In this document: positions 39,778 to 42,339 of the stretch, one piece after another | Layout of the letters: each line of letters opens with the position of its first letter | Numbering within the stretch: position 1 is the stretch's first letter | Assembly (NCBI RefSeq): GCF_004803895.1 | Contig: NZ_CP021978.1 | Span: 1,116,001-1,180,000, forward strand | DNA: 64,000 nt | Direction of reading: 5' to 3' | From: Streptomyces hawaiiensis | GTDB lineage: Bacteria; Actinomycetota; Actinomycetes; Streptomycetales; Streptomycetaceae | The notes under the pieces: generated by a model | Told to the model about the DNA's origin: nothing | Databases searched by the model: none | Seen by the model: the letters and a program-made list of their open reading frames with translations, nothing else | Program-made: the position numbers and the translations under genes

Positions 39778-40473
39778 TCACGCGGGCCCGGGTACCAGCC
39801 CCACTCCCCGGGCGAGTTGCCCCACCGCGTGCCGGAAGAACGCCTCCCGGTCCTCCACCACCCGGTTGAACTGGCCGAACAGCTCGAAGCCGACCAGTCC
39901 GTACAGCTGGGCCCAGGCCGCGACGAGCGCTGTCACGACCTCCGGGGGGACGTCGGGGGCGAAGTCGGCGACCATCCGTTCGGCCGTCGGGCGGAGGTCG
40001 GCCGGGAGCGAGGGCCGAGCCAGACCCGGGCTCCGGTGGGCGTCGCGGGCGATGCCGATGAGCAGGAGGCCGACGCGGGCGGCGGCCGGGACGGTGATGT
40101 CGGGGGCCGTGTAGCCGGGGACGGGCGTCCCGTAGATCAGCGCGTACTCGTGCGGGTGCTCCAGCGCCCAGCCCCGCACCGCCTCGCAGACCGCGATCCA
40201 GCGCTCGAAGAGGCCGCCGGCCGCAGCGCCGTGGGCCGCCTCGGCACTCTCGCCGAGGGAGTCGTAGGCGTCGATGATGAGAGCGGTCAGCAGGTCGTCA
40301 CGGCTCGGGAAGTAGCGGTACAGCGCGGAGGAGACCATGCCGAGCTCCCGGGCCACGGCCCGCAGGGAGAGCCGGGCGGCGCCCTGCGCCGCGAGCTGCC
40401 TGCGGGCCTCGTCCTTGATGGCCGCGGTGACTTCGATCCTCGCCCGGGCACGGGCGCCGTGTGCGGTGCTCAT
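39778..40473 (-). CDS. TetR family transcriptional regulator
   Basis: This 231-residue protein has the N-terminal TetR helix-turn-helix (LSLRAVARELGMVSSALYRYFPSRDDLL) and a C-terminal ligand domain of the TetR_C group with WxxxHPHEYALIYG. ATG 40473 is preceded by GGGAG. The region between it and the divergent nitroreductase-like gene carries six 19-bp repeats with the dyad GAGCANTGCTC, which is a likely cluster of its operators. By family analogy it should repress both genes and respond to a small molecule. Confidence 0.9.
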   Translation of the reverse strand: MSTAHGARARARIEVTAAIKDEARRQLAAQGAARLSLRAVARELGMVSSALYRYFPSRDDLLTALIIDAYDSLGESAEAAHGAAAGGLFERWIAVCEAVRGWALEHPHEYALIYGTPVPGYTAPDITVPAAARVGLLLIGIARDAHRSPGLARPSLPADLRPTAERMVADFAPDVPPEVVTALVAAWAQLYGLVGFELFGQFNRVVEDREAFFRHAVGQLARGVGLVPGPA

Positions 40474-40495
40474 GCCGGGCAGTCTCCCACGGGAA

Positions 40496-40648
40496 CAGAG
40501 CAGTGCCCACAAACGAGAGCCGTGCACATAAAGGAGAGCGATGCATACAAAAGAGAGCAGTGCTCTTGCGCTGGTGTGAGGGCGTCGTGCAAACTGACGC
40601 AAGACAGAGCGAGAGCAGTGCTCACAGAAGAGAGCACCGCTTCGCCGC
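40496..40648. repeat. array of 19-bp iterons (4 + 2 copies)
   Basis: Four contiguous 19-bp units begin at 40496, 40515, 40534 and 40553 and two more at 40611 and 40630. All begin (C/G)AGAGC. The dyad AGAGCAGTGCTCT is perfect at 40554-40566 and partly kept in the others; units 1-3 end in an A-rich tail (ACAAA, ATAAAG, ACAAAA). The gap between blocks is close to three more units (58 bp between 40553 and 40611). Confidence 0.8.
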
Positions 40649-40664
40649 CACCCGAGGGGGCACC

Positions 40665-41114
40665 ATGTCCACGCACGTCCAGAAGCCCGGCTGGTTCACC
40701 GTCAACGTCTTCAACCGCGTCGTGGCCTGGATGACCCGCCGCGGCATCAGCGTCTGGGGCTCCCGAGTCCTCGCCGTCCGCGGCCGCAAGAGCGGCCAGT
40801 GGCGCACCACCCCGGTCAACCTGCTGGCCCTGGACGGCAAGCAGTACCTGGTCGCCCCCCGCGGCCATGTGCAGTGGACGCACAACATGCGTGCCGCGGG
40901 CGGCGGCGAACTGCACCTCGGCAAGCGCGTGGACGCCTTCACCGCGGCCGAGGTGGGCGACGACGACAAGACCCCGATCCTGCGCGCCTACCTCAAGCGC
41001 TGGAAGGCGGAGGTCGGGGTCTTCTTCAACGGAGTCGGCCCCGACTCCCCGGACGAGCAGCTGCGCCGCATCGCCCCGGACCACCCGGTCTTCGAGATCA
41101 CTCCGGTGAGCTGA
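40665..41114 (+). CDS. nitroreductase/deazaflavin-dependent oxidoreductase (DDN family)
   Basis: This 149-residue protein starts at ATG 40665 after GAGGGGG. It has the split-barrel pattern of the F420-dependent DDN family: TRRGISVWGSRVLAVRGRKSGQWRTTPVNLL, then QYLVAPRGHVQWTHNMRAAGGGEL. It probably uses reduced F420 to reduce a quinone or nitro compound. It diverges from the TetR gene over the iteron array. The end overlaps the convergent flavoprotein gene by 17 bp. Confidence 0.9.
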   Translation: MSTHVQKPGWFTVNVFNRVVAWMTRRGISVWGSRVLAVRGRKSGQWRTTPVNLLALDGKQYLVAPRGHVQWTHNMRAAGGGELHLGKRVDAFTAAEVGDDDKTPILRAYLKRWKAEVGVFFNGVGPDSPDEQLRRIAPDHPVFEITPVS

Positions 41115-42339
41115 CCTCGCCGCCCGTCGCGGGACGGCGGTCCAGCGCGGCCAGGGCCCGCTGGGCCATCGGATGCGTGCGGACGAGGTCACCCAGCGAG
41201 GTCTTGCCCTGGGTGATGTCCTTGAACGCCTTCCAGGCGGGGCGCAGGCCCGTCAGGCCCGCGTGGAACAGGCCGGGGCGGCGCTCGAACGCCGCCAGCA
41301 TCCGCTTGCCGACGCTCATCTCCACCCCGAGTCCGGCCTTGACGGCGAACGCGTAGTTGAGGGCCTGCCGGCGCGTGTCCACGGCGTCGTGCGCCTCGGC
41401 GATCCGCACCGCCCACTCCCCCGCGAGCCGGCCGGACCGCAGCGCGAAGGAGATGCCCTCACGGGTCCACGGCTCCAGCAGCCCCGCCGCGTCACCGCAC
41501 ACCAGCACCCGTCCGCGCGACAGCGGCGAGTCGTCGGCGCGGCAGCGGGTCAAGTGCCCCGAGGACATGCTCGGTTCGAAGCCGGCGAGGCCCAGCCGTC
41601 CGATGAACTCCTCCAAGTACCGCTTCGTCGCGGCGCCTTCGCCACGGGCCGAGATCACCCCGACCGTCAGGGTGTCGCCCTTGGGGAACACCCAGCCGTA
41701 ACTGCCGGGCATGGGGCCCCAGTCGATGAGCACCCGGCCCTTCCAGTCCTCGGTGACGGTCTCCGGCACCGGGATCTCCGCCTCCAGGCCGAGATCCACC
41801 TGGCTGAGCTTGACGCCGACATGCGCCCCTATGCGGCTGGCGCTGCCGTCCGCCCCGACGACGGCCCGGGCGAGCAGGACCTCGCCGCCCTGCAGGACGA
41901 CGGCGACCGTGCGCCGGTCCGGGACCGTCGAGCCGTGCTGCTCGACCCGCTGGACCGTGACGCCCGTGCGCAGCTCGGCGCCCGCCTTCTGCGCGTGCTC
42001 GACGAGCTGTTGGTCGAACTCGGCCCGGTTGATCAGCCCGAACAGCATCTGCTTGGAGCGGCGCGTGCGCGTGAAGCGGCCGTTGTTCGAGAACGTCACC
42101 GCGTGCACCCGGTCTCGGAGCGGCAGCTCGAAGCCGGGCGGCAGGGCGTCGCGCGAGGGGCCGATGATGCCGCCGCCGCACGTCTTGTAGCGCGGCAGCT
42201 CCGCCTTCTCCAGCAGCAGCACGCGTCTGCCGGCCACCGCCGCCGCGTACGCGGCCGAAGCGCCCGCGGGTCCCGCGCCCACCACGACGACGTCCCACAC
42301 CTGACGCACCTCGTCCGCCGAAGAGTTCTCGCTGCTCAC
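41098..42339 (-). CDS. geranylgeranyl reductase family FAD-dependent oxidoreductase
   Basis: This 413-residue flavoprotein starts with GTG 42339. The dinucleotide motif WDVVVVGAGPAGASAAY is at residues 15-31, KTCGGGI follows as the family signature, and the FAD-contacting GD motif is in RVLVCGDAAGLLEPWTREGIS. The family reduces isoprenoid side chains such as those of menaquinone or lipids. No carotenoid or terpene cluster is present, so a role in quinone or lipid tailoring is more likely. Its 3-prime end overlaps the DDN gene by 17 bp. Confidence 0.9.
   Translation of the reverse strand: MSSENSSADEVRQVWDVVVVGAGPAGASAAYAAAVAGRRVLLLEKAELPRYKTCGGGIIGPSRDALPPGFELPLRDRVHAVTFSNNGRFTRTRRSKQMLFGLINRAEFDQQLVEHAQKAGAELRTGVTVQRVEQHGSTVPDRRTVAVVLQGGEVLLARAVVGADGSASRIGAHVGVKLSQVDLGLEAEIPVPETVTEDWKGRVLIDWGPMPGSYGWVFPKGDTLTVGVISARGEGAATKRYLEEFIGRLGLAGFEPSMSSGHLTRCRADDSPLSRGRVLVCGDAAGLLEPWTREGISFALRSGRLAGEWAVRIAEAHDAVDTRRQALNYAFAVKAGLGVEMSVGKRMLAAFERRPGLFHAGLTGLRPAWKAFKDITQGKTSLGDLVRTHPMAQRALAALDRRPATGGEVSSPE

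Follow-up and report, generated by a model that had tools for sequence, protein, structure and literature searches.

Regulators of the TetR family belong to the most common bacterial switches, and they are generally viewed as single-dimer devices with one or two sites. Among the closest described systems, EthR of Mycobacterium tuberculosis is presented in the available portions of two papers (PMC9210681, PMC5403819) as binding its 55-bp operator, which is flanked by two divergent genes, in the form of a cooperative octamer. The Streptomyces regulators SCO7222 and ActR, also of the TetR family, have three footprinted operators each, according to excerpts of PMC3511530. More than one TetR-type dimer per operator is likewise described for QacR, CgmR and RolR (PMC9210681, same portions). 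Outside the family, BldC of Streptomyces forms cooperative multimers on DNA with direct repeats and sites of variable length (PMC5859096).

The window analysed here is a stretch of 64,000 nucleotides of Streptomyces hawaiiensis DNA, in which an array of repeat units lies between a tetR gene and a divergent reductase gene, ddn. The positions are as follows.

39778 to 40473, minus strand: tetR, TetR-family regulator (TetR_N and TetR_C_33, by Pfam) of 231 amino acids, its promoter inside the array
40481 to 40486, minus strand: putative -10 of tetR, GAGACT, about 7 nt before the start codon; the element is conserved
40497 to 40509, plus strand: unit 1 (U1), AGAGCAGTGCCCA, right half altered, would overlap the tetR -35
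40516 to 40528, plus strand: unit 2, variable middle unit, AGAGCCGTGCACA, with the middle-unit profile
40535 to 40547, plus strand: unit 3, variable middle unit, AGAGCGATGCATA, with the middle-unit profile
40554 to 40566, plus strand: unit 4 (UL), full dyad, AGAGCAGTGCTCT, runs into the putative ddn -35; near-invariant, 145 regions
40566 to 40571, plus strand: putative -35 of ddn, TTGCGC; TTGCNN comes after UL in almost every one of 153 regions
40590 to 40595, plus strand: putative -10 of ddn, CAAACT, spacer 18 bp
40612 to 40624, plus strand: unit 5 (D1), AGAGCAGTGCTCA, just 3' of the inferred ddn start
40631 to 40643, plus strand: unit 6 (D2), AGAGCACCGCTTC, 19 bp past D1
40665 to 41114, plus strand: ddn, F420H2-dependent quinone/nitroreductase-type gene, 149 amino acids, divergent from tetR
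41098 to 42339, minus strand: geranylgeranyl-reductase family gene (TIGR02032, 276 bits, over the cut-off), outside the array

Layout of the array and the overlapping promoters

The flanking genes were assigned with family models. The tetR product matched PF00440 with 47.2 bits (cut-off 24), giving the TetR_N helix-turn-helix domain, and PF13305 (TetR_C_33) with 91.4 bits (cut-off 26.8), giving a C-terminal ligand domain. Its closest solved structures by sequence were Rv1816 (5d1r, 2.4e-38) and SCO4313 (2oi8, 2e-33), and the literature search found no paper giving an operator for either. MSMEG_3765 was rejected as a relative, being orthologous to Rv1685c and not to Rv1816 and having another operator motif, of 36 bp. 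By TIGR00026 (53 bits, cut-off 46.35) and PF04075 (42 bits, cut-off 22) the ddn product is assigned as a Ddn-type F420H2-dependent reductase. The geranylgeranyl-reductase gene is convergent with ddn, overlaps its end and is a neighbour in 118 of 119 orthologous loci; the two genes possibly share an isoprenoid or quinone role.

The stretch between the start codons of tetR and ddn carries six units headed by AGAGC, with the first A at 40497, 40516, 40535 and 40554 in block 1 and at 40612 and 40631 in block 2. These coordinates bear out the six units in two blocks (4 + 2) that the sequence-only reading had described between tetR and a Ddn-type reductase gene. The steps are 19, 19, 19, 58 and 19 bp. 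The exact 19-bp phasing claimed there thus holds inside each block and is lost across the blocks, which are out of register; their distance of about three units was nearly right, the 58 bp being 3 x 19 + 1. GAGAGC, said to be shared, occurs in five of the six units, unit 1 having CAGAGC, and AGAGC is common to all six. The shared dyad is complete as AGAGCAGTGCTCT in unit 4 only. Of the others, unit 5 differs from it at one position, and in units 1, 2, 3 and 6 the left half-site is retained and the right half decayed. The A-rich tails reported for units 1 to 3 are present as ACAAAC, ATAAAG and ACAAAA, and the tail of unit 5 is ACAGAA.

In this single sequence, the identity at lag 19 was 70 against 47.5 +/- 5.9, a value reached by 1 of 5000 dinucleotide shuffles. 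When the best lag between 10 and 59 was allowed, the array signal was reached in 74 of 5000, so the signal is significant, yet moderate with all lags allowed. Tandem Repeats Finder detected the array with a score of 78. The decisive evidence for the array, drawn from sequence comparison, is the set of 156 orthologous regions, together with the confinement of the exact tandem pattern to one place in the own genome, both described below.

The search for the same 19-mer family elsewhere, proposed earlier as a check, was run on the own genome (one 8.88-Mb contig) and found the exact tandem pattern confined to the tetR/ddn locus. With up to two mismatches the pattern had 28/21 matches against 25/19 in the reversed control, which is no enrichment, and a second TetR of the same type was absent at E<=1e-8. 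As the exact pattern occurs at one locus and the looser matches stay at the control level, the array looks like a local switch with one target. The nearest other array candidates, at 2.631 and 2.636 Mb, both fall inside long open reading frames and were attributed to chance. A perfect AGAGCGGTGCTCT at genome positions 3787115-3787127, outside the window, continues into ATCCCCTGAGCTA; it was left out of the operator count since it looks like part of a tRNA gene.

The units overlap both predicted promoters. A CACACT/AGACT-type element is kept at the -10 place of tetR across the orthologous regions, and the tetR mRNA is probably leaderless, since this -10-like element lies directly before the start codon. 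In almost every species U1 carries TGC(A/C)CA in place of TGCTCT as its right half, which fits a tetR -35 on the other strand. On the ddn side, every one of the 153 regions with a located promoter had a -10-like CAGACT/CACACT at UL+35 or +36, so that the spacer is 17 or 18 bp. The distance from UL to D1 was 52-58 in 148 of 152 regions (58 in the window), and many species have D2 at 19 bp beyond D1. Many species have a weak in-register unit, GGATCACCGATCT, between the ddn -35 and -10, which is degraded in the window. The arrangement corresponds to that of the TetR family, with predicted palindromic operators over the regulator's own promoter and the divergent one.

The reading that we prefer, and consider probable, is that the array forms the operator set of the adjacent TetR, which would repress tetR and ddn, with cooperating neighbours and a unit number that tunes the switch. 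A dimer on unit 1 would cover the -35 of tetR and lead to autorepression, a dimer on unit 4 would cover the -35 of ddn, and dimers on units 5 and 6, just past the ddn start, would help to shut the ddn promoter. Units 2 and 3 would bridge units 1 and 4 in one 19-bp register, where adjacent dimers, 1.81 helical turns apart, would touch and aid each other. Both promoters would be switched together, unit number would set affinity and steepness, and a small ligand of the TetR_C_33 domain may release the dimers from the array.

The size of such an effect was estimated with a toy nearest-neighbour model and an illustrative cooperativity of 20-100. Going from one to four sites lowered the half-saturation about 9- to 30-fold and gave a slope of about 2-2.6 at four sites, and further units added little. 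For two to four sites compared with one, the half-saturation fell about 4- to 30-fold and the slope was about 1.6-2.6.

Conservation of the register and variation of the unit number

A search at E<=1e-30 recovered the TetR from 269 of the 296 genomes sampled in the genus; the weakest of these matches may be paralogues. The comparison set consisted of 156 distinct intergenic regions from members of the genus; the relatives of the locus that carry names are all Streptomyces. With a minimum of 9 of 12 matches, 626 sites were counted in these regions, where shuffles gave an expectation of 28.5. The nearest-neighbour spacing was 19 bp in 225 of 470 pairs, followed by 38, 53, 34 and 57 bp, and neither 18 nor 20 bp was among the spacing counts listed.

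In 142 of 149 regions the distance from U1 to UL was divisible by 19 without remainder. It amounted to one step in 57 regions, two in 55, three in 14, four in 5 and five in 8, and one region each had seven, eight and nine steps. Block 1 accordingly has 2 to 10 units across the regions, the window with its three steps having four. In the region with nine steps (L025), three units in a row are identical, which points to a recent tandem duplication, and in some long arrays (L072) the middle units have decayed.

Changes in copy number alone do not prove a function, because unequal recombination between repeats by itself yields 19-bp steps. Changes were therefore counted along a tree of 119 TetR proteins, which is weakly resolved and makes these counts approximate: the U1-UL distance changed at least 41 times and its remainder modulo 19 only 5 times, and the UL-D1 gap changed 45 times, mostly in steps of 1-6 bp. 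The safer count came from 38 disjoint close pairs, in which the unit number differed in 17, by a multiple of 19 in 14, and the UL-D1 gap differed in 16. Both comparisons argue for selection on the spacing beyond slippage.

The 71 regions of a more distant set, from many genera of the class and with TetR proteins 43-58% identical, point the same way. A weaker second site lies exactly 19 bp tetR-ward of the first strong palindrome in 49 of them, and other nearby upstream offsets were seen in 0-8 of the 71. The 19-bp step is not obligatory, as sites in some relatives are spaced by 34-35, 40 or 21 bp. Many of L217-L240, which come from a further set of families, have their two strong operators at a distance of 34-35 bp instead of 53, which suggests that the promoter is covered differently there. 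L261 and L274, with sites 21, 22 or 27 bp apart, are possible exceptions to the register.

These data also bear on the explanation that competes best with the preferred one, in which UL and D1 block ddn and U1 blocks tetR as independent sites, without interaction between dimers, and slippage has left the middle units behind as neutral remnants. UL and D1 are indeed near-invariant, and the middle units are weaker in their right halves, mostly with 7-9 of 12 matches. The identical units of L025 are what slippage would give, and the 57 one-step regions have no middle unit at all. Against neutral remnants speak the 56 middle units of two-step arrays, none of which falls below 6 of 12 and in which the contact positions are kept. 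Single-base insertions and deletions accumulate in the UL-D1 gap but hardly inside the array, and the weak site 19 bp off the palindrome persists in the distant relatives. We regard independent sites as unlikely.

Variation of the unit number in a region under presumed tetR autoregulation could also mean that extra units titrate the repressor and produce a threshold or a delay without contact between neighbours. A few chromosomal sites would titrate little unless the repressor is very scarce, and titration does not need a 19-bp register; this explanation appears very improbable.

The gene behind the array varies as well. The reductases of the orthologous loci form two clades, with 77-100% and 47-57% identity to the ddn product of the window. 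A fully supported branch separates them on their own tree, they are scattered on the TetR tree and their neighbours are the same. By this pattern the reductase seems to have been replaced in place beneath the same array. D2 has at least 8 of 12 matches in 60 regions, mostly loci with the type A reductase; by clade, it was found in 51 of 69 loci of the first and 5 of 45 of the second. Between reductase type and the unit number of block 1 there was a trend that was not significant, with 4 supported independent pairs.

Covariation of the operator with the recognition helix

Some distant relatives carry AGAACANTGTTCT as operator instead, and this difference follows residue 48 in the recognition helix of TetR. 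Serine at this position went with a GAGC operator in 64 of 64 cases and proline, threonine or alanine with GAAC in 5 of 5; one proline case was mixed and five had no clear site. The rule was seen in the first 15 relatives and then tested on 60 new ones, in which it held but gained only one new non-serine case (L254). The Fisher p value of 9e-8 is too optimistic because of shared ancestry. In L203-L211, from another family of the same order, a related TetR faces a gene with a dinucleotide-binding-like start (VIVGAGPVGTATAKVLAERGE) in place of ddn; the operator layout is the same and the operator spacing is similar, mostly 53 bp.

The covariation also speaks on the A-rich linkers. At linker positions 15-17, A makes up 67-85% in U1 and the middle units, and the linkers are conserved, as might be expected if they curved the region intrinsically and the units were secondary. 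It is the half-sites, however, whose letters are conserved, and these covary with the TetR helix. The tracts are also rotated by about 69 degrees per step, so that their bends sum poorly and almost cancel out over five units. The earlier suggestion that the tails bend the DNA on a near two-turn period is weak on the same ground, 19 bp being 1.81 turns, and a planar A-tract bend was rejected by this helical-phase arithmetic. Bending as the main purpose of the array is thus highly improbable.

Replication or partition iterons, or sites of another protein, are the least credible explanation and can practically be dismissed: phased repeats look alike, but this array sits in the middle of a conserved chromosomal tetR/ddn/GG-reductase locus, at which no association with an origin or an initiator gene was found, and its operator letters covary with the TetR helix.

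Taken together, the conservation, the promoter overlap and the covariation of operator and recognition helix strongly support the multi-site array of the adjacent TetR that had been proposed from the sequence. Its place in the class of TetR operators is secure by sequence, and the array is the predicted operator set of this TetR. Repression of both tetR and ddn is very likely, and cooperative or graded control is plausible in view of the conserved spacing. A more detailed picture, which we put forward tentatively as a possibility, has dimers side by side every 19 bp, an evolvable copy number of 2 to 10 that would set strength and steepness and that shifts by whole units from one sister Streptomyces species to another, and a controlled enzyme that can be swapped.

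Comparison with known multi-site regulators

Growth and shrinkage across Streptomyces by whole 19-base steps suggests side-by-side binding of neighbouring repressors and a site number that can evolve as a setting of the switch. The natural series of units in exact steps could be used to measure how affinity, steepness and noise depend on the number of sites, and it offers a case for how regulatory repeats arise, stay in register and get lost. For this TetR subfamily, a simple specificity rule is provided by the covariation between residue 48 and an operator base. A search of the literature on multi-site TetR regulators in Streptomyces gave no match to the tetR/ddn array system. Within the PMC full texts, the exact operator strings retrieved only one unrelated paper.

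The array resembles the EthR system, as described in the available portions of its papers, in having a divergent oxidoreductase gene and, as predicted for the array, a TetR-family autorepressor with several dimers on direct repeats, the cooperativity being shown for EthR. Both place several phased sites within a single divergent promoter region. The operator sequences differ, the units here being of the type AGAGCANTGCTCT (EthR repeat in PMC9210681, portions available). EthR also binds as an octamer to a compact 55-bp stretch of repeats, and those portions report neither a 19-bp register nor a variable unit number. SCO7222 and ActR resemble the array in the genus and the divergent gene, with three palindromes of their own in one intergenic region, whereas their site sequences are different and SCO7222 protects three discrete regions; the excerpts of PMC3511530 describe neither a constant register nor variation in copy number. 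The operators of QacR, CgmR and RolR, as covered in the same portions of PMC9210681, take exactly two dimers on 28-32 bp and are not extendable. BldC is a MerR-like protein of 68 residues from an unrelated family, which forms head-to-tail oligomers on another repeat (PMC5859096). Multi-site control by TetR regulators is therefore less rare than the sequence-only reading had assumed, given the three sites of SCO7222 and ActR and the EthR octamer. Measured against these systems as their sources present them, a TetR array with a constant, strict 19-bp register and a variable copy number seems, provisionally, to be new.
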